From: Methylophilales bacterium
Lineage (GTDB): Bacteria; Pseudomonadota; Gammaproteobacteria; Burkholderiales; Methylophilaceae
Length of the DNA: 64,000 bases
NCBI GenBank assembly: GCA_019823025.1
Contig: CP081940.1
Location: 558,001 to 622,000, forward strand
Direction: 5' to 3'
Positions 33,020-56,265 of the stretch are shown one piece after another. Position 1 is the first letter of the stretch. The number at the start of each line of letters is the position of its first letter. Made by a program: the position numbers and the translations under genes. The notes beneath the pieces were generated by a model, which had not been told where the DNA came from, made no database searches, and saw only the letters and a program-made list of their open reading frames with translations.

Positions 33020-33717
33020 GAAGATTTTTTTTAATTCTCTCTTTATTTTTAATGGGTTGTAATTCGTCATTAGAAAGGAAGGATTCTACACAATATGACA
33101 AAGGCTCTTTCAATCAGCTCACAAAGACAGATTTTGACAGAATGGCTGATTATGAAATTAAAGAGAATACCGAAAGTTTAAGAATTCTTGCGTTAAAGTT
33201 TTATAAAAAAAATCCTGCGGAGCTGAGGAAAACCACATCAGACAGCCCTGAAGTTACAGTCAACTGGCTATTTACAACCCAACATAGCTGGAAATTTAAA
33301 GAAATTAACGATGCCCAAGGAATTGAAGCACTTGATCAAGTGTTTGATGAGAATTTCAAAGGTGACAGAGTGCTGTCACTTATTACCGGTTTATACACTA
33401 TGCTAATAACGGCCCATGACAATCAAAAAGAATTTGATATGTTTGATTCACTTGACCCACAACTTATCTACAACGCCGCTCGAAATGTTGAAGTCATTGT
33501 TTGGCGACTATCGACAAAAAAGAAAAAAAATGGAGAGCTATTCCTTGTTACAAATGAAATTAATGATGATTCTCAAAACCTATCATTTGAAAGAGAGTTT
33601 GGAAAAATTATTGGTAGAACGGATTATTTTGCTTACGTATTATCTGAAAAAAAAGAGCGGTACATAACAAGAGCCGTTCAAGGCACGACATTGAATATAT
33701 TATTACCATTTCTATAA
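33016..33717 (+). CDS. Predicted lipoprotein of unknown function, behind phoBR
   Basis: The product has 233 residues and a clear type II signal ([14 protein letters not shown], lipobox LMGC with Cys15), so it should be lipid-anchored in the periplasm after LspA processing. The remainder is soluble with alternating helices and strands; I recognise no domain. The region [20 protein letters not shown] resembles proteins annotated only as hypothetical in betaproteobacteria, but I cannot name the family. Start overlaps the phoR stop (ATGA), so expression with phoBR is likely. The end overlaps the convergent oxidoreductase by six bases. Confidence 0.72.
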
Positions 33718-36700
33718 CAATATTTTTTCGATTCCACCTTTTGTTGCCTTTTCAACATAGTCTTCAAGCCAACCTTCTCCCAGGTTATGTTTAGCTAATT
33801 CAACAACAATATAATCAGCAGTTGTTTTAGTATCATCCCCATACCGCTGAAGTCCCTGAAGGCATGATGGACAAGACGTTAAAATCTTAACTGGTTTTTC
33901 ATCCATCGTTGCATTAACAGGCAACTCTGAAATTCCTTTTTGAATTTCTTCTTGTTTTCTTAATTTCACCTGTGACGCTATATCTGGTCTGCTGGCTGCA
34001 AATGTTCCAGACTCACCACAGCATTTGTCATTCAAAGGCACAGATTGATTCATCAGAGTGCTTGCCACCTTTGTAGGCTCATATGTTTTCATTGGGCTAT
34101 GACATGGATCATGATACATATATTGTTGACCCGAAATTCCATCCATCTTAATATTTTTTTCCATCAGGTACTCATGAATGTCTAAAAGGCGACATCCAGG
34201 AAATATCTTTTCAAATTCATATTTTTGTAGTTGATCCATACAAGTACCACAAGACACAATTACCGTTTTAATATCTAAATAATTTAGAGTGTTTGCGACC
34301 CTGTGGAACTGAACTTGATTGTCTGACGTAATCTCCTGACCTTTAATTTCATCACCTGACGAAGTTTGAGGATACCCACAACAAAGGTATCCGGGCGGTA
34401 ACACTGTGACCGCTCCAACTTCAAATAACATAGCTTGAGTTGCAAGGCCTACTTGAGAAAATAATCTTTCAGACCCGCAGCCAGGAAAATAAAAAACAGC
34501 CTCAGATTCTTCATTCGTTTTACTTATATTTCTGATTACGGGAACTACTTTATCATCCTCAATACCCAATAATCCTCTAGATGTTTTTGTTGGCATATTT
34601 TTAGGCATTGGCCTATTCAAAAAATGAATAGTTTGTGTAATTACGTCAGGTTTTTTAACGGTTGCAGCTGGTGATATTTTAGAAAAATTTGTTAATTTTA
34701 ATTTTTTTAAAACCTTATGTCCCCATCGTTGAATTTTATAGCCATAATCAATCATCACTTTTCTCATTAGTTTGATTGTTAATGGGTCCTTTAAATTTAG
34801 ATAGGTAATTGCAATTGAGTTTCCAAAATTAAAGTGCTTCTTACCTTGTTCTCTTAAAAAATTTCTCATTGAAATTGAGACTTCACCGTAATCAATATCA
34901 ACGGGACATGGAGCTAAACATTTGTGGCAAACTGTACAATGATCTGCGACATCGTTAAATTCATCAAAATGTTTAATTGAAATGCCTCTTCTAGTTTGCT
35001 CTTCATATAAAAAAGCTTCGACAAGCAATGATGTTGCCAAAATCTTATTTCTAGGGCTATAAAGCAAATTAGCTCTTGGCACATGAGTGGCGCATACCGG
35101 CTTACATTTACCGCACCTCAGACAATCACTCACTGAATCTGCGATAGAGCCAATTGTTGACTGATTCATAATAATTGATTCCTGCTCCAATAAGCCAAAG
35201 CTCGGTGTATAAGCATTCATCAACCCTGAGCCAGGTAACAACTTACCTCTATTAAAGTTTCCATTAGGGTCGACCTTATTCTTATATTCAGCAAAGGTAT
35301 TTATTGCTGATGGTTCTAAGAATTCCATCTTTGTAATTCCAATGCCATGCTCTCCAGAAATAACGCCATCTAAACTTTTAGCCAGATTCATGACACGAGC
35401 AACAATTTTTTGAGCCTCTTGCATCATTTCATAATTGTCTGAATTTACAGGAATGTTTGTATGGATATTGCCATCACCCGCATGCATATGAAGTGCCACA
35501 AAGAGTCTTGATTTCAAAATGTCTTGATGCTTTTTATTGATAATCTCTCTTATATCAGCGTATTCTCTCCCATTAAATATATCCTCTAAAGGTTTTTTTA
35601 ATTCACTCTTCCATGAGATCGTTAGTTTATGGGATTGTATTAGGTCAAAAATTGTATTATCGCCAATGAATTCAGATAATTCTGGATAATCTTTTGAAGT
35701 CGTTTGAAACCCATCCAAATAGCTTACCCATTTACTTTTAACAGAAGCAAGATGTTTTAGTGCGATATGTTTCTTTTCTTCAATAACGCCTTCATCCAAA
35801 TCATTTTTAAAATTGCTTAAAAAATTAAAATTAAATAACGCTTCCAACTCTGTAATTAATTTTAATTTATTAGAAATAGATTGTTCGATATTTATTTTTT
35901 CAATTTCATTGGCATACCTACCAAGATTGGGCAGGGGAATAACAACATCTTCATTTATTTTAAAAGCATTTGTATGTTTAGCGATTGCCGCTGTTCTAGC
36001 CCTATCTAGCCAAAACCTCTTTCTGGCTTCCGCCGAAACTGCAATAAAACCCTCTCCATTTTTTATGTTTGCAATTTGAACAACTTTTGAAGCAACTGAA
36101 CCAAGCTCATCTTCATCATTTGAGGCAATATCTGCAATTAATACCATCTTGGGTCTCTCTGATCTTGTTGCTTTTGTAGAATAACCAACAGCTCTTATGT
36201 ACCTCTCATCTAAGTGCTCAAGACCAGCCAGGGAAACGCCTTCAAATTCTTTTAAATATTCTGTAATTTGGACGATAGAAGGAACAGCGTCGCTGACACT
36301 TCCAAAAAATTCTAAGCAGACGGTCCTGATATGTTCAGGCATTTTATGGAGAATAAATCTTGCTGAAGTTATTAGTCCGTCACATCCCTCTTTCTGAACA
36401 CCTGGCAGCCCACTTAAAAACTTATCAGTGACATCCTTACCTAATCCAGCTTTTCTAAAGTTAGCGCCAGATATTTCAAGAATTTCAGGGTTTTCTTTAG
36501 GGTTGATACCATTTTCATCAAACTTAGTTATCTGAAATTTAACTGTTTCAGTATCATGAACCTTGCCTAAGTTGTGAGCCAACCTTTCAATTTCAACCCA
36601 ATCTCCATTAGGATCAACCATCTTCCAAGAAGCAAGGTTATCTAAAGCCGTTCCCCAAAGAACAGCTTTTTTTCCACCCGCGTTCATCGCAACGTTTCCA

Positions 36701-37563
36701 CCTATGCATGAAGCATCAGCAGAAGTCGGATCTGTTGCAAATTCTAAACCTGCATTTGATGCAACTTCCATCGCTCTTCTTGTAACAAGCCCTGCGCCAC
36801 AATGAATTGTTGGAACTGTTTGGGTAATTCCAGGTAAATTTTTATATTCGACTTGACTCACACTGTCTAGCTTTTCTGTATTTATTACTACTGACTGAGA
36901 TACTAGTGGGATTGCACCACCAGTGTAGCCAGTCCCCCCGCCTCGAGGTATTATCGTTAAACCTAACTTGATGCAAGCCTTTACGATGGTGGACACTTCC
37001 AATTCAGTGTCCGGATTTACTACTACGAACGGTAACTCAACACGCCAATCAGTAGCATCTGTAACATGAGAAACTCTTGCTAAGCCATCAAACTGAATGT
37101 TGTGTTTTTTAGTATATTTCTTAAGTCTAGAATAAACTTTTTTTCTTAACTTTTTTACTTGTTGGAACTCTAACTCAAATTCATCAATCGCAGTTCTAGC
37201 AGCTTTTGTTAACTGCGCTGCCTTCATGTTGCCAAAGCTTCTATCTTCAATACTCTGAACCCTGTGGCGCATTGCTTTCAGAAGCATATTTAGTCTTTTT
37301 TTATTTTCTAATAAGTCATCTTGGAGATAAGGATTTCTTTTCACGACCCATAAATCACCTAAAACTTCAAAAAGCATTTTTGCAGAACGCCCAGTTTTTC
37401 TCTCAGATCTTAACTCTAGGATGATATTCCATATATCATGGCCAAGAAAACGTATAACAATTTCTTTATCCGAAAAAGAGGTGTAGTTGTAAGGTATCTC
37501 TCTTAATCTATCTGAAGAAGAGGATGGAAGCTTAGCTAATACAGATGATAGGGGTGCGTTCAT
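33712..37563 (-). CDS. Giant FAD-binding oxidase / Fe-S / CCG-domain oxidoreductase (DUF3683 type)
   Basis: Single chain of 1283 residues. Roughly in order: an N-terminal DUF3683-like helical region (1-165); an FAD-binding type 4 domain with [13 protein letters not shown] near 205; a glycolate/D-lactate dehydrogenase-like C-terminal part to about 780 with [14 protein letters not shown] and GEHGIGI; two [4Fe-4S] motifs, [11 protein letters not shown] near 812 and [12 protein letters not shown] near 871; and two CCG halves with CCGYP near 1057 and CCGESG near 1179. It is a fused GlcD/GlcF- or Dld-like 2-hydroxyacid dehydrogenase expected to feed quinone. The substrate is unknown. The same fusion is known from other betaproteobacteria. 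Confidence 0.85.
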
Positions 37564-49517: not shown

Positions 49518-49553
49518 TGAAATAAGCCGTAAGTATATCAACCAATGACGCTT

Positions 49554-50603
49554 ATGGAAATCGATGATTTTGATTATGAACTCCCAACAAACTTAATTGC
49601 TCAGCAACCTCCAAAAGTCCGTGGTGACAGCAAATTATTGATTGTAAATCCAAACAAAACTAGCCTACTAGATAGTCATTGTAAAAATTTTTATGACTAC
49701 TTATCTCCCAAAGATCTATTAATTTTTAATGATACCAAAGTAATTAAGGCAAGATTATTTGGAGAAAAAGCCACGGGGGGAAAGGTTGAGCTTTTAATAG
49801 AAAATATCATAGACCCTAATCATGCACTTACAATGATTAAAACTTCAAAAAAAATACACATTGGGCTCAAAATATTTATTTCTAAATCAATTTTTTTAGA
49901 AGTAACAAAACTAGATGAAAAATTATTCCGTGTTAAATTATTTGGATCTAATTTTACAAGGTTGCTTGAAGAATTTGGTCATGTCCCACTACCTCCATAT
50001 ATCAATAGGAAAGATCAAGCAGAAGACTTAGAAAGATACCAAACTACGTTTGCTAAAAATTTAGGTGCAGTAGCAGCTCCAACGGCTGGCCTCCACTTTA
50101 CAGAAAATGATTTCATAAGATTTAAACAACATAAAATTAGCTATAACTTTTTAACATTGCATGTAGGGTCTGGGACATTCCAACCTGTCAAAACCAAAAA
50201 TATTTCTGATCACCAAATGCACTTTGAATATTTTAATATCACTGAACAGCTAAAAGATCAAATTCTAAATACTAAAAAGGAAGGTGGTCGTATTATTGCG
50301 ATTGGAACAACTTGCATGCGGGCGCTTGAAGCATCATTTATGGATAATGAAATTAAAACTGGTAATCAAAAGACTAATATATTTATAACACCTGGATATA
50401 AATTTAATATTGTTGATGGTTTATTCACTAACTTTCACCTTCCAAAAAGTACACTTCTTATGTTAGTGTCTGCTTTTGCTGGATATGAATTTACAAAAGA
50501 AATATATACTCACGCTATTAGTAAAAAATACCGGTTCTTTAGCTATGGTGATGCAATATTTATTGAACAAAAAATGCTTAAAGAAGACTTACATAATAAT
50601 TAA
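49554..50603 (+). CDS. queA: S-adenosylmethionine:tRNA ribosyltransferase-isomerase QueA
   Basis: Makes epoxyqueuosine at the wobble position of GUN-anticodon tRNAs. Product 349 residues. Seen: DFDYELPTNLIAQQP at the start, FNDTKVIKARLFGEK, YINRKDQAEDLERYQTTFAKNLGAVAAPTAGLHFT, HVGSGTFQPVKT and FHLPKSTLLMLVSAFAG. I start at ATG 49554 because MEIDDFDYELP lines up with MRVTDFSFELP of E. coli; ATG 49545 adds three residues. The usual partner tgt is not in the window. Confidence 0.95.
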   Translation: MEIDDFDYELPTNLIAQQPPKVRGDSKLLIVNPNKTSLLDSHCKNFYDYLSPKDLLIFNDTKVIKARLFGEKATGGKVELLIENIIDPNHALTMIKTSKKIHIGLKIFISKSIFLEVTKLDEKLFRVKLFGSNFTRLLEEFGHVPLPPYINRKDQAEDLERYQTTFAKNLGAVAAPTAGLHFTENDFIRFKQHKISYNFLTLHVGSGTFQPVKTKNISDHQMHFEYFNITEQLKDQILNTKKEGGRIIAIGTTCMRALEASFMDNEIKTGNQKTNIFITPGYKFNIVDGLFTNFHLPKSTLLMLVSAFAGYEFTKEIYTHAISKKYRFFSYGDAIFIEQKMLKEDLHNN

Positions 50604-50623
50604 TTGAAAACGGAATAATTAAA

Positions 50624-51496
50624 ATGAAAAAATTGCTGCTTGTTTTACTATCAACCGCTACAGTTTTTGCAAGTAACATCAATGCCGAGATTAAGGAACA
50701 GGCAGAACTAGTTTTTAAGATTCCTCTCAAAAAACAACCAACAACTAGGCCACAAACACTCGCCTATATTCCAGTAGAAAAAAAATATTATATTGCTGAT
50801 GGTGGATTAGCACCCATGGGTTCTAACAGTCAGGCACCCATATCTAAATCTTTAATCCATACATACGATGACAAGGGTAACTATATTGAATCAACCCGAC
50901 CCGGCTTTGACAACCGATCAATTTATTTCAATACCAAAAAAGCTGAACTGGAAACAATTACATACAATGTATCAGCTTCAGCTGGATTCGCTCCTATGAC
51001 AGGAATCTACACTTTAGAACTTGATGATGATGGATTATTAACAGGTAAATCAAACGATATTATCAATACAGTTTTTGCTTTTGAAAGCTCAGGCACAATG
51101 CCCTCTTATGATGGTAAAAATAACCTATATTTTGCGAAACAAGAAAAATCAAACAAAGTCATCGTTGTAGATGCAGAAGAGTTTACTGCTAAAAAAACAA
51201 TAGAACTTGATTTTAAAACACCAAATGTTAAGCCCTTTGATGTCGCAAGTCATTTTATTGCTTTCACAGATGTTAAAGATAACGAGTTAATTTTACTTGA
51301 TGTTGAAAATAAACGATTTTTGATTTATGACACCGAAGGTAAATATAAAGGAGAAAGTAAGTTACCTAAGAAATTAAAGTTACGCTCAAAAAATTATTTT
51401 AACGGGCTAGGTTACACGCTTAACGGATATTACTTCGTTTATATTGACTCTGAGGGTGAGTTTGGTACTTATCATGCATACAAGGTACTGGACTAA
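50624..51496 (+). CDS. Exported protein of unknown function, beta-propeller-like
   Basis: 290 residues with a clean signal peptide (MKKLLLVLLSTATVFASNINA). The mature part consists of repeated short strands with Gly/Asp turns (LAYIPVEKKYYIADGG, LIHTYDDKGNYIEST, KVIVVDAEEFTAKKTIELDF, NELILLDVENKRFLIYDTEGKYKGES), as in NHL or WD-like propellers. I do not recognise a named family. It follows queA by 20 bases on the same strand and its stop abuts the stop of convergent proS. Periplasmic location is likely; no catalytic motif is visible. Confidence 0.72.
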   Translation: MKKLLLVLLSTATVFASNINAEIKEQAELVFKIPLKKQPTTRPQTLAYIPVEKKYYIADGGLAPMGSNSQAPISKSLIHTYDDKGNYIESTRPGFDNRSIYFNTKKAELETITYNVSASAGFAPMTGIYTLELDDDGLLTGKSNDIINTVFAFESSGTMPSYDGKNNLYFAKQEKSNKVIVVDAEEFTAKKTIELDFKTPNVKPFDVASHFIAFTDVKDNELILLDVENKRFLIYDTEGKYKGESKLPKKLKLRSKNYFNGLGYTLNGYYFVYIDSEGEFGTYHAYKVLD

Positions 51497-52729
51497 CTAA
51501 TTCTTAAGTTTACCTAACAACTCCTCGAGATTAATAACTAATGAGCTCTGCTCACTTCGTCCTTTATACTCATATTTGTTATCTTTTATCGTTTTATCCC
51601 CTACCGTCACCCTATGAGGTATACCGATTAGATCGGCTTCACTAAACATCACGCCTGGGCGGAGGCCTCTATCATCTAGAAGGACATCAAAGCCCTGTTT
51701 AATTAAGTCATCATAAAGTTTATCTGCATAGCTTCTCACTTCCTTGTTTTTATCATATCCAATAGGCGTAATAATCACTTCGAAAGGTGCAATTGATGAA
51801 GGAAAGATGATACCGCTTTCATCGTGGCTTTGTTCAATTGTCGCTGCCACAATTCTTGAAACACCTATCCCATAACAACCCATGATGACAGGTTTTGACG
51901 ATCCATCTTCTGCAATAAAATTAGCAGACATTTTTTCAGAATATTTTGATCCTAATTGAAAAATGTGACCGACCTCAATACCTCGACAGGTTTTAAATTT
52001 ATCAATATTAGGGTTATCTTTTGCTAATTCAATATTCGCAGCATAATCAGAATGCTCATCATAGACTAGAACGTCTTCGCCAGAATCTGCAAGAACATGA
52101 AACTCGTGAGATGCATCGCCTCCGATAGCCCCATTATCTGCTGACACAGCTCTAAACTTTAATCCAATGCGATTAAATATATTCTCATATACCTTAAACA
52201 TTTTTTGGTATGTTTCTTTGAGACAATCAAAATTGGTATGGAATGAATATGCATCTTTCATTAAAAATTCTCTAGCCCTCATAACGCCAAACCTAGGTCT
52301 TATCTCGTCTCTAAATTTCATTTGAATTTGGTAGAAATTGATAGGTAATTGTTTATAGCTGTTAATTTCTTTTCTTATAATATCTGTGATCACTTCCTCA
52401 TGCGTAGGCCCAAAACAAAACTCTTTCTCATGCCTATCTTTAATTTTTAACATTTGAGGACCAAACTCCTCCCAACGTTCGGACTCCTTCCATAAGTCAG
52501 CAGGCTGAATGGCTGGCATTAAAAGCTCTATGCAATCTGCCTTATTAAGCTCATCCCTTATAATCATTTCAATTTTTTTTAACACCCGGAGGCCCAATGG
52601 CATAATGGTGTATAGGCCTGACCCAAGCAATCTAACCATACCTGCCCTTACAAGCAACTGATGACTTAAAAGTTCAGCCTCCGCTGGAGATTCCTTCCTT
52701 GTTGCAATGTAGAATTTTGATGCTCGCAT
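51497..52729 (-). CDS. proS: Prolyl-tRNA synthetase without editing domain
   Basis: Class II synthetase of only 410 residues; the usual beta/gammaproteobacterial enzyme has about 570. Motif 2 ([27 protein letters not shown], near 138-164) and motif 3 ([13 protein letters not shown], near 284-296) are intact, as is the C-terminal anticodon domain. Between [10 protein letters not shown] (ends 236) and [13 protein letters not shown] (from 248) only about eleven residues remain, where E. coli ProRS carries the ~180-residue INS domain that hydrolyses Ala-tRNA-Pro. The flanks are so E. coli-like that this is a clean loss rather than a different subfamily. The frame is open and in an operon, so it is not a pseudogene. 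Confidence 0.95.
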
Positions 52730-52731
52730 TT

Positions 52732-53187
52732 TTAATTATTTCCTTTCATTTCACCTTGTAATGATGATTGGATATCATGCCATAACTTTTTCTTCTTATC
52801 CGGGTTTGACAACATTTCATCTAACGATGGCAATGATTTAATAGTTACATCTAAATCATGTAACCCCATTGAGTTCGATCCCCCTATGAAGAATATGTGA
52901 ATTATTGAGTTCTTCTTTAATATTACATCAATCTCCCCTTCTTCTATATTCCCCAAGTATTTTGAATTTACTGAAATAGAATTCATATACACATGAATAT
53001 TTTTAAATAATTCTTTTGCATCATTGGTTAAGCTATCAAGCTCGGGCACTATAATTGAAATATTTAATTCTTTAAAAAAATATAAGCCAATGTTAGAAAA
53101 GGCCTGTGTAGTTTTTTTCGGACTTTTTTTATTCAGCCAAATTGGGAGTAAATTCAGTTCCTCGTATGCAACCTTTTTTTCTATCAT
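52732..53187 (-). CDS. Possible DNA polymerase III psi subunit (HolD-like)
   Basis: 151-residue soluble protein, highly diverged. Three parts fit E. coli psi: [14 protein letters not shown] (psi: LQQLGITQWSLRR), [18 protein letters not shown] (psi: LPALTDPLVSDVLRAL) and, best, [21 protein letters not shown] (psi: SPALTDLRANPTARAALWQQI). In E. coli holD lies next to rimI; here it also follows rimI, between it and proS. If correct, it links the clamp loader to chi and SSB. The alignment was done by eye from memory of the E. coli protein, so the call is moderate. Confidence 0.55.
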
Positions 53188-53193
53188 ATTTAT

Positions 53194-53658
53194 TTAAAAG
53201 CTTAACGCCATTAAAATGGCATCTTCATTTCCATTTGATGTTTTGTAGTAATTTGGTCGAATTCCAACCTCATTGAAACCTTTTTTTTCATATAACAGAA
53301 TAGCATTTTTATTTGACCTTCTGACCTCTAAAAATAGATTTGACACTTTTCTTTCTAAACAATTTTTAACTAGGTGACTTATTATAATTTTCCCAAAGCC
53401 TTGCTTATGAAAATGCTTGTTTACCGTGATATTTAGGAGTTCACATTCATCGGCTGCGAAGCTTGCAATGTAATAACCTATAATTAATTCATCACCTTTT
53501 AACACTTGAAATAGATTGCCAGCACTTATCGAATCAAGAAGATTTTTTTTTGACCAAGGCGAAATATGGCAATCTGCTTCAATCAAGACAATTTTTTCTA
53601 TATCACTCAACTCTACATTTATGAAGCTAAATTTTTCTTTCTTTGGCTTTAAGATCAA
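53194..53658 (-). CDS. rimI: Ribosomal protein alanine acetyltransferase-like RimI (GNAT)
   Basis: GNAT-fold N-acetyltransferase. Seen: ISPWSKKNLLDSI, the acetyl-CoA loop KQGFGKIIISHL, LFLEVRRSNKNAILLYEKKGFNEVGIRPNYY and NEDAILMAL, which closely follow RimI. The start is uncertain: an ATG at 53715 would overlap tsaB by 89 bases, while the TTG at 53658 gives 154 residues (E. coli: 148). I use 53658. Lies between tsaB and the holD-like gene; tsaB-rimI pairing is conserved in many bacteria. Confidence 0.86.
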   Translation of the reverse strand: MILKPKKEKFSFINVELSDIEKIVLIEADCHISPWSKKNLLDSISAGNLFQVLKGDELIIGYYIASFAADECELLNITVNKHFHKQGFGKIIISHLVKNCLERKVSNLFLEVRRSNKNAILLYEKKGFNEVGIRPNYYKTSNGNEDAILMALSF

Positions 53659-54325
53659 TTTCTCTTTCACTGATAGTTTTGGCAACGTTATTCCTAATAT
53701 ATATAGGTGCGGCATTTTTAAGATTAAAATTTTTATCTAGCCTTTTTATGCTTAATTGAGCAATTGCACCTGCTAATGGGTATTCATTCTCATCAATTAT
53801 AACTTTTTGGTCTTGGTATCTCTCAATTAGAATTTTTTTATATTCAAAAACACCTGACCCGGCGATAACACCATCTACTAAATCTAAATTAGGTAAATCG
53901 CATGGCTCAAAGACACCGCTATCAATAATTGAAACCAGCTCACCATTGACCCTCTTATATGCGCCCATATATAACTCTCCCATCCTTGCATCCACGCAAG
54001 GTATGACGACATCTTTATTTACTTTTTTGGCAATAGCCTCTAGATTATTGATTCCTACAATAGGTAAATTATGGGCATATGCAATACCGTATGCCACACC
54101 CGCAGCAATTCTGACCCCTGTAAATGATCCTGGGCCTGCGCCAAAGGCAACACCATTAAGATCACTAAAATTAATATCACTTATATCCATTAAGTTTTTC
54201 AATAAAGGTAGGATATTTTCAGAATGTTTTTTATCAGATGAATACGATTCCTCAATTAAAGAATCATTTTTTAGTAAAGCAATAGATAAAAGTTGACCCG
54301 AGGTGTCGATTGATAAAATGTTCAT
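53627..54325 (-). CDS. tsaB: tRNA threonylcarbamoyladenosine protein TsaB
   Basis: Non-catalytic partner of TsaD in formation of t6A37 in ANN-decoding tRNAs. It has 232 residues. Seen: MNILSIDTSGQLLSIAL, GAGPGSFTGVRIAAGVAYGIAYA and PCVDARMGELYMGAYKR, the ASKHA-like N-terminal half. Its start overlaps the dinG-type helicase by four bases and its end overlaps rimI. Confidence 0.93.
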   Translation of the reverse strand: MNILSIDTSGQLLSIALLKNDSLIEESYSSDKKHSENILPLLKNLMDISDINFSDLNGVAFGAGPGSFTGVRIAAGVAYGIAYAHNLPIVGINNLEAIAKKVNKDVVIPCVDARMGELYMGAYKRVNGELVSIIDSGVFEPCDLPNLDLVDGVIAGSGVFEYKKILIERYQDQKVIIDENEYPLAGAIAQLSIKRLDKNFNLKNAAPIYIRNNVAKTISEREIDLKAKERKI

Positions 54326-56265
54326 TCTAATTCTTCCAAAAAATTAATAACGGCAGATTCATTCCTTGTTCTCTTAAAAGGAGGGAGGCTTTTCCAAATC
54401 TTAATACCATATGACTTTTCAATAATTCTTTTATCACAAATAACCATAACCCCTTTATCATGATCGTCCCTAATAAGTCTTCCCACCCCCTGCTTAAGCC
54501 TTATGATCGCTTCAGGCAGTTGCATCGACATAAAAGCATTTATCCCCTCTTCAGATAATAATTTAATTTTTGATTCAAATACAGGATCTCCTGGTGATTG
54601 AAATGGAAGCTTATCAATTATAACTAAACTCAATGCCCGACCTCTTACATCGATACCCTCCCAAAAACTTAATGAACCAATTAAAATTGCATTTCCATGT
54701 TTTTTAAATTGCTGCAATAAGTCACTTTTAGGGCCCTCTCCTTGTGTAATTACTGGATAATCAATTTCATTTTTTTTGAGTTCATCCTTTAATAAAGCAC
54801 CAATTTGCTCCATTGATTTTAAGCTTGTGGCCAAAACGAACGCCCTACCTTTTGATGCTTTGAGAAGGGGTAATGCCTTTTTAACCAAAACTAAATTGAA
54901 TAATTCATCCTTTGAATCTGGGATTTCTTTTGGCACATATAAAAATGCATTTTCACTATAATTAAATGGGCTCTGTAAATATTGGGTCATTGCTTTTTCA
55001 AGTCCGAGTAGCTTCACAAAGTGATCAAAGCTCCCATTGATTGATAAGGTTGCCGAAGTGAATATCCATGCACTTTCACTTTTCTCTTGAAATTTATTAA
55101 ATTGTTCAGAAATACTTATGGGGGTTTCATTAAATTGAACTGTCCTGGCAAAAACCTCTAACCAATAAATATTATTTTGATTATCTTTTTTCAACCAAGA
55201 GCTAAATCTTATATTAAGCTCCGAAGATCTTTCAAACAGCTTTTGTAGCTCTGCATTTTCCTCAGAATGCTTTGATAAAGTAATTCCTAATAATTCTAAT
55301 TTTTCAATTAGAGAATTATAAGTTTTTTCAAAATTTTCGTAGTTCTTAAGATTGTTGATATTTAGTCTGGCAGGAAATGGGCTTACTATTTTTTTTAACT
55401 CAAAAACAATTTCTTGAAAGTCTTTTGATAAAGTATCTAAAACCTTAATGGTATCTGGATATTTTTTTAATCCTTGTTGACAGTCTTGGATTAAATTAGA
55501 TATTTGACTAGAAGAAATGGATTGACCCAGAAAAAAAGATGCAACTAATGGAACTTGATGGGCCTCATCAAAAATTATCGTATTCGCTTTGGGGAGAATC
55601 TCTGATAATTCTTCATCTTTTAAGACAAAATCAGCAAAAAATAAATGGTGATTTACTATAAGCACCTCTGATTCTAGTGCCTCTTTACGTGCTTTTACTA
55701 AAAAACATTCCTTATAAAATTCACAATCCTGTCCCAGACAATTTTCCTTTGTCGAAGTGACCATTGGCCATATAGTTGAAGTCTCTGGTATTTCACTGAT
55801 TTCAGACACCTCACCGGAATCGGTGTTATCTGAAAAAGCCTTAATTAGATGTAAATGTTGAGCATCCTCTTTGTTAAAAAACATGCCCTCCTGAATTGTA
55901 TTTTCCATCCTAAGTTTACAAATATAGTTTCCTCTTCCCTTTAAAATATTTACCTTCACGGAGATTTTAAGAGCCTCTCTTATTTTAGGAATATCGTTGA
56001 AAAAAAGTTGGTCTTGTAAGTTTTTCGTCGCTGTTGATATAACAACCTTACCTCCCTTTAAAAGTGCTGGATATAAATAGGCAAAGGTTTTACCAACGCC
56101 CGTTCCAGCCTCTACAACTAAAGATGATGTGTCTTCAATCGTGCCAATAATTGATTTTGCCATTTCAACTTGCTCGGTCCTTAGTTGATAATCTTCAAGG
56201 CAATCATTTAAAGGGCCATTTACACTAAAGAAATCGTCAGTCGTAGAATTTTGATGGGCAGTCAT
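54322..56265 (-). CDS. DinG/YoaA-family ATP-dependent DNA helicase with Fe-S cluster
   Basis: XPD-like superfamily 2 helicase of 647 residues. Seen: the Q-loop and Walker A VVEAGTGVGKTFAYLYPALL, cysteines of the Fe-S domain in ENCLGQDCEFYKECFLVKAR, the DEAH box TIIFDEAHQVP, FTSATL, the helicase C-terminal IGSLSFWEGIDVRGRAL and QGVGRLIRDDHDKG. Size and sequence fit YoaA rather than the larger DinG. First gene of the dinG-tsaB-rimI-holD-proS run. Probably acts in repair of replication forks, with YoaA being a partner of chi in E. coli; a psi-like gene in the same operon is of interest. Confidence 0.88.
   Translation of the reverse strand: MTAHQNSTTDDFFSVNGPLNDCLEDYQLRTEQVEMAKSIIGTIEDTSSLVVEAGTGVGKTFAYLYPALLKGGKVVISTATKNLQDQLFFNDIPKIREALKISVKVNILKGRGNYICKLRMENTIQEGMFFNKEDAQHLHLIKAFSDNTDSGEVSEISEIPETSTIWPMVTSTKENCLGQDCEFYKECFLVKARKEALESEVLIVNHHLFFADFVLKDEELSEILPKANTIIFDEAHQVPLVASFFLGQSISSSQISNLIQDCQQGLKKYPDTIKVLDTLSKDFQEIVFELKKIVSPFPARLNINNLKNYENFEKTYNSLIEKLELLGITLSKHSEENAELQKLFERSSELNIRFSSWLKKDNQNNIYWLEVFARTVQFNETPISISEQFNKFQEKSESAWIFTSATLSINGSFDHFVKLLGLEKAMTQYLQSPFNYSENAFLYVPKEIPDSKDELFNLVLVKKALPLLKASKGRAFVLATSLKSMEQIGALLKDELKKNEIDYPVITQGEGPKSDLLQQFKKHGNAILIGSLSFWEGIDVRGRALSLVIIDKLPFQSPGDPVFESKIKLLSEEGINAFMSMQLPEAIIRLKQGVGRLIRDDHDKGVMVICDKRIIEKSYGIKIWKSLPPFKRTRNESAVINFLEELE

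Follow-up and report, generated by a model that had tools for sequence, protein, structure and literature searches.

The gene proS lies on the minus strand of the window, by which we mean the whole 64,000-nucleotide stretch of DNA analysed, and encodes a prolyl-tRNA synthetase (ProRS) of the bacterial type in which the INS editing domain, otherwise located between motifs 2 and 3, is absent. The genome from which the window was taken (G000) consists of one contig of 1,336,408 bases, with an estimated completeness of 96.77%. The following features compose the locus:

49545..51496, plus strand: queA and a gene of 290 aa, convergent with proS (locus context)
51497..52729, minus strand: proS, INS-less bacterial-type ProRS, 410 aa (open reading frame with ATG start, phmmer, Pfam, NCBIfam)
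51497..51985, minus strand: motif 3 part of the catalytic domain and anticodon-binding domain, residues 249-410, stop codon included (phmmer, Pfam)
51986..52021, minus strand: deletion junction, residues 237-248 (12 residues), the place of INS in relatives (alignment)
52022..52729, minus strand: N-terminal part of the catalytic domain, residues 1-236, as far as the INS insertion point (gap-free alignment with Pseudomonas ProRS 9-248)
52732..53187, minus strand: gene of 151 aa upstream of proS, probable holD (DNA polymerase III psi; PF03603 at 20.7 bits, cut-off 22.2)
53194..56265, minus strand: rimI-tsaB-dinG block (shared locus context of proS)

The names rimI, tsaB and dinG are presumed from similarity. 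The holD-like gene diverges fast, with about 26-32% identity between congeners beyond the nearest species. The 290-aa gene (50624-51496, plus strand) keeps its position in the family stretches examined and has sub-threshold Pfam matches only, the best being DUF4221. The longest open reading frame of the window, 1283 aa, is found at 33712-37563 on the minus strand.

When compared by phmmer with the Pseudomonas ProRS (5ucm, 579 aa), residues 1-240 and 247-405 of the proS product align to residues 9-248 and 411-570, respectively, and the INS block is absent. The last ~10 residues of the junction, immediately before RGIE, match in the alignment the C-terminal flank of INS in relatives (SPDGKGKLKLC). 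Pfam identified PF00587 and PF03129 in the product and gave no match to PF04073 at E<=0.001. The proposal of the first-pass annotation that the whole editing domain had been lost is borne out by these data; its estimate of some 180 missing residues had to be corrected to about 151-162 (about 151 relative to INS-bearing congeners), since, counted from the conserved start, the product has 410 aa, INS-bearing congeners have 561-566 and the Escherichia coli enzyme 572. The product scores above the cut-offs of the general bacterial ProRS model NF006625 (638 versus 558 bits) and of the bacterial-type model TIGR00409 (596.2 versus 306.7 bits), and narrowly under that of the 'exception' model NF008979 (547.9 versus 550 bits), which we take to represent the alphaproteobacterial short form. 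INS-less members are also part of the bacterial-type family, so that the membership of the proS product stands despite the absence of INS. It is the only ProRS found in the genome, where the second of two matches is the threonyl-tRNA synthetase (ThrRS). Its AlphaFold2 model has a middling overall mean pLDDT of 67.6 (80-84 in blocks 231-250) and is given no weight in the argument. The analysis confirmed proS as a complete single-copy gene for an E. coli-type ProRS from which INS is cleanly absent.

INS-less ProRSs as such are already known: according to the accessible part of one paper, 34% of bacteria are without a functional ProRS editing domain, and many of these depend on ProXp-ala (PMC3973320). 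The alphaproteobacterial INS-less (mini-INS) ProRS accompanied by ProXp-ala, for example in Caulobacter, and the Rhodopseudomonas palustris enzyme (2I4L) are likewise bacterial-type without functional INS. Nevertheless, the studied enzyme contains GPTHEE and MGCYGIG where that of R. palustris has GPTNEE and GGSYG (differing at H110 and C443), and its core groups with Methylophilaceae ProRSs, as expected from the proposed deletion in the organism's own lineage, and not with the single R. palustris row, which is present in pieces only and served as outgroup. The studied genome also differs from the alphaproteobacterial system in having no ProXp-ala or YbaK relative. With the E. coli-type INS-bearing ProRS, a form still present in congeners, the enzyme shares family and core, and it differs by the missing block.

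Among 31 genomes of the genus, 17 carry a one-piece INS-less ProRS, one (G029) an INS-less but interrupted copy and nine an INS-bearing enzyme; no ProRS was found in the other four, which are 60-69% complete. Could the short gene reflect an error of sequencing or assembly, or be a pseudogene in decay, as the interrupted copy in G029 might suggest? In that stretch (L053) queA, the 290-aa gene, proS, tsaB and dinG are all interrupted, and since the neighbour genes are broken as well, assembly errors are the likely cause. The identical junction is shared by 17 genomes and by the metagenome proteins listed: in a search of 5.8 billion proteins, the best 120 of 8000 scored matches were 340-411 aa long and none contained PF04073, and one cluster among the listed matches was found on 128 contigs. 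Seven ProRS pairs gave dN/dS values of 0.03-0.08, and the short proS is under purifying selection; moreover, the genome has no second ProRS. The error or pseudogene explanation is rejected on the sharing among genomes, the metagenome proteins and dN/dS, and we assign it a negligible probability. The read error raised by the first-pass annotation fails on the same grounds: relatives with INS do exist, yet the short form is common to the whole sub-clade. Named INS-less relatives, at 90-97% identity, comprise a BACL14 Methylophilales metagenome-assembled genome, a Methylophilaceae isolate record, and Methylobacillus sp. and Nitrosomonadales records. The OM43 clade is placed in Nitrosomonadales by NCBI, and we infer that the studied genome, that of a small-genome methylotroph, belongs to this marine group or near it.

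In a tree of the ProRS core, built without the INS columns, the 17 INS-less rows form one clade (support 100/99) that adjoins the nine INS-bearing congeners (100/97), both being joined at 97/84 inside the family. The INS-less species are again one clade (100/99) when the tree is built from six other genes of 18 genomes (2275 columns); in this tree the INS-bearing clade and the outgroup were flagged for long branches. The ThrRS tree of the 31 genomes is compatible with the INS-less clade and leaves open forks among INS-less lineages, which the six-gene tree resolved. The order dinG-tsaB-rimI-proS, with convergent queA and 290-aa gene, is shared by the INS-less and INS-bearing congener stretches examined and by G031 and G033, from other genera; G032 and G036 have part of it, including the queA/290-aa arrangement, and in G050, from another family, proS stands alone. 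Between rimI and proS, a match to the holD-like gene was obtained for the INS-less stretches and for G008.

Similar short enzymes exist in SAR86 and other lineages, and proS could in principle have been acquired by horizontal transfer from an INS-less lineage, alphaproteobacterial or SAR86-like. Against this, the core adjoins that of INS-bearing congeners with strong support, the locus is common to INS-bearing relatives, and a topology in which all 27 INS-less rows are held together was rejected (p-AU 0.00015). Trees, AU test and gene order rule out a transfer at this sampling, which leaves it a very low probability, and the specifically alphaproteobacterial transfer considered earlier as the alternative to a deletion is contradicted by both the ProRS-core tree and the 71-row tree described below.

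The INS domains of the INS-bearing congeners have an INS/core distance ratio of 2.7-3.0 versus 1.6-2.5 elsewhere (2.5 in G031), with raw distances near saturation. They retain K279, D350 and H369, presumably the functional INS residues. These observations lend modest support to a relaxation of INS preceding its loss; we do not claim that INS is inactive in the sister species.

We searched for a protein that could replace the lost domain. PF04073, the family of INS, YbaK and ProXp, has no match in the studied genome, whereas 12 of 14 control genomes match. Within the genus it is found in nine of the 31 genomes, once in each and inside a frame of 566-571 aa, that is, the ProRS, and no free-standing PF04073 protein was seen in any of the 31. 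A genus-tuned INS profile (three INS domains of the genus, two of the family and two free-standing relatives) detected at E<=1 the same nine genomes only, the studied one not being among them. The first-pass annotation had noted no trans-editor in the window, and this observation now extends to a genome-wide search for PF04073 proteins. Beyond the genus, the domain is matched in every one of the 30 genomes of a relatives sample (six of the family and 24 of the order) and in 390 of 399 in an order sample; the nine without a match are the studied genome, six of 11 from the genus g323 and two others. The domain is present in the remaining five sampled g323 genomes, whose sizes span 1.7-2.8 Mb across the genus sample, making g323 a possible second case of loss within a genus. 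The genus g305, of the same family and with genomes of 1.3 Mb, keeps PF04073 in ProRS-length frames in four of four sampled genomes, so genome size alone is insufficient to explain the loss.

AlaX-like proteins and extra B3/4 deacylases were also considered as candidates, and none was found in the genome beyond synthetase-length frames. The two tRNA_SAD matches fall in the ThrRS frame and in a frame of 886 aa, by its length the AlaRS, and the single B3/4 match falls in a frame of 787 aa, by its length the beta subunit of PheRS. The statement that IleS in the window keeps its editing domain holds, as the 922-aa IleRS was matched over 15-838. AlaRS, ThrRS, PheRS and IleRS all retain their editing domains in this genome.

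Ala-tRNA-Pro may still be removed by a trans-editor that has no relation to PF04073 or has diverged too far from it. Most described INS-less bacteria use a trans-editor, as far as the accessible parts of two reports go (PMC3973320, PMC10164551), and deacylases of other folds exist according to the available portion of a third (PMC11415595). In addition, PF04073 fails to recognise the ProRS inserts of two other genomes (G281 and G071, see below), and for this reason an unusual trans-editor is conceivable here. Two profiles without a PF04073 match and the confinement of the tRNA_SAD and B3/4 matches to synthetase-length frames argue against a hidden editor, which we regard as unlikely. Taken with the trees and the locus, these results make it probable that a single in-place deletion removed INS in this genus, in the ancestor of the sub-clade, and that no recognisable INS-family trans-editor was gained. 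A comparable state is described for Mollicutes, which according to the accessible part of the source neither edit in cis by their ProRS nor have homologues of YbaK, ProX or AlaX (PMC4014445). Both cases combine a reduced genome with a tRNA-Pro without any known editing; Mollicutes differ, as far as the same partial text goes, in having a ProRS of the eukaryotic/archaeal type and other synthetases whose editing domains are mutated, whereas here an E. coli-type ProRS lacks INS and the other synthetases named above keep theirs.

The recurrence of this state was surveyed across the class in 370 sampled genomes, each at least 90% complete, where PF04073 matched 333 and was absent from 37, including the studied genome. 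Searching the other 36 with the studied ProRS revealed 19 with a one-piece INS-less ProRS (50-60% identity, genomes of 0.9-2.0 Mb), two with an insert not recognised by PF04073 (G281 and G071, in agreement with Pfam), 14 with weak matches only and one with none. The weak matches are to ThrRS, or are short matches in frames of ~500 aa that we take for archaeal/eukaryal-type ProRSs. The inserts of G281 (L090) and G071 (L091) stand at the INS position and are perhaps decaying INS domains; a family mate of G281, G181, matches PF04073 at 9e-10. Genomes that are INS-less and without PF04073 amount to 20 of 85 up to 2.0 Mb versus none of 285 larger ones (Fisher p ~2e-14, kinship ignored; counted by hand from rounded genome sizes). 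The most reduced genomes of the class sample, G076 and G210 (0.3-0.4 Mb), have a ProRS with INS retained, which again indicates that size by itself is insufficient.

Both INS states are found within families f52, f109 and f179. In a 71-row core tree, in which the row of G218 comprises only the open part because of an in-frame stop, the INS state requires nine changes (7-9 in bootstraps), and starred branches force at least four; several long rows and many open deep forks make this number unsure. In this tree G311 is the partner of the SAR86 contig L039 (100/100), and deletion junctions differ between INS-less lineages. A single origin of INS-less ProRS is rejected, and several independent losses occurred in the class. 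The independent loss proposed at first is one among several, and it goes back to the ancestor from which a sub-clade of a single genus descends.

The substrates of the enzyme were also inspected. Two tRNA-Pro genes, with anticodons UGG and GGG, were identified in a scan of 30 of 36 tRNA matches, and both have C1:G72 and A73, the elements given for bacterial tRNA-Pro in the accessible part of PMC10164551. An altered tRNA-Pro was considered and discarded, both genes being canonical at positions 1, 72 and 73.

It is also conceivable that the loss is compensated, the INS-less site being more selective against alanine or better at hydrolysing Ala-AMP, so that an editing domain is not needed. Loss of the editing domain goes with higher substrate specificity in bacterial-type ProRSs, according to the available portion of PMC11415595. 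In our alignment, 13 core columns differ from the INS-bearing consensus in at least four of 13 INS-less groups. At one position near the site, following F415, Gln is found in 40 of 41 INS-bearing rows, and Lys and Glu replace it in five and one, respectively, of the 13 INS-less groups. The studied enzyme retains this Gln, and the INS-bearing chains of Enterococcus and Staphylococcus type (2j3l, 5znj) also have Lys, for which reasons we do not read the Lys as compensation. T109, E111, R140 and C443 (E. coli numbering), which we take to be pocket residues, are invariant in 27 of 27 INS-less rows. H110 is replaced by Phe in four INS-less rows, the GHIFQLG stretch is variable, and G251 has Gln at H413, a replacement also seen in some INS-bearing rows. 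Judged from the core alignment, no convincing change would support a tightened synthetic site, changes elsewhere being possible, and we regard compensation as a doubtful, though not negligible, explanation.

Most likely, these cells lack any INS-type clearance of Ala-tRNA-Pro and depend on the accuracy of the first sieve. The ProRS would charge tRNA-Pro and presumably activate some alanine and cysteine, like other ProRSs, with no second sieve in cis. Only rejection or hydrolysis at the synthetic site, the ratio of the amino acid pools and later translation steps would then limit Ala-tRNA-Pro; as no YbaK was found, Cys-tRNA-Pro would be under the same limits. We infer that no unrelated protein edits the product and that the cost is bearable. 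In the accessible part of PMC10164551, E. coli ProRS discriminates 23,000-fold against alanine, effectively only ~1200-fold at 168 uM Ala and 9 uM Pro, and clearance of Ala-tRNA-Pro is considered likely to be required for this reason. Proline makes up 3.66% of residues in the window open reading frames, about 11 per 300 residues, and with the E. coli effective discrimination one Ala-for-Pro substitution would be expected in an estimated ~1% of proteins of 300 residues. A larger proline pool would reduce this rate in proportion, and the predicted errors would vanish if INS-less ProRSs have the higher specificity indicated in the available portion of PMC11415595. A low proline content is unsupported as a reason for the loss, since proline is not lower in INS-less (4.1-4.4%) than in INS-bearing (3.9-4.1%) congener stretches. 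On proline as an osmolyte in this group, the texts searched gave one passage about putP in relatives and nothing decisive.

The broader interpretation, which we consider evenly balanced, is that small-genome bacteria, among them the near-OM43 sub-clade and cells of SAR86 type, have repeatedly and independently cut INS from an E. coli-type ProRS without replacement in trans. Translation of proline codons would then lack all post-transfer proofreading, a standing alanine (and cysteine) error being tolerated or limited by pools. In the open-access literature, which misses most subscription papers, we found no description of the INS-less, editor-less state for small-genome Methylophilaceae or SAR86, nor of recurrent deletion of INS from an E. 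coli-type ProRS. Because both states occur in one genus, among species that agree in gene order and are close in genome size, and the loss recurs in several unrelated small-genome lineages, these lineages constitute natural replicates for the worth of editing. They could tell how the cost of the loss is met, through an improved active site, through the amino acid pools or by bearing the errors. If the interpretation is true, proline proofreading would be a dispensable trait tied to genome reduction in non-parasitic bacteria, differing even between sister species.
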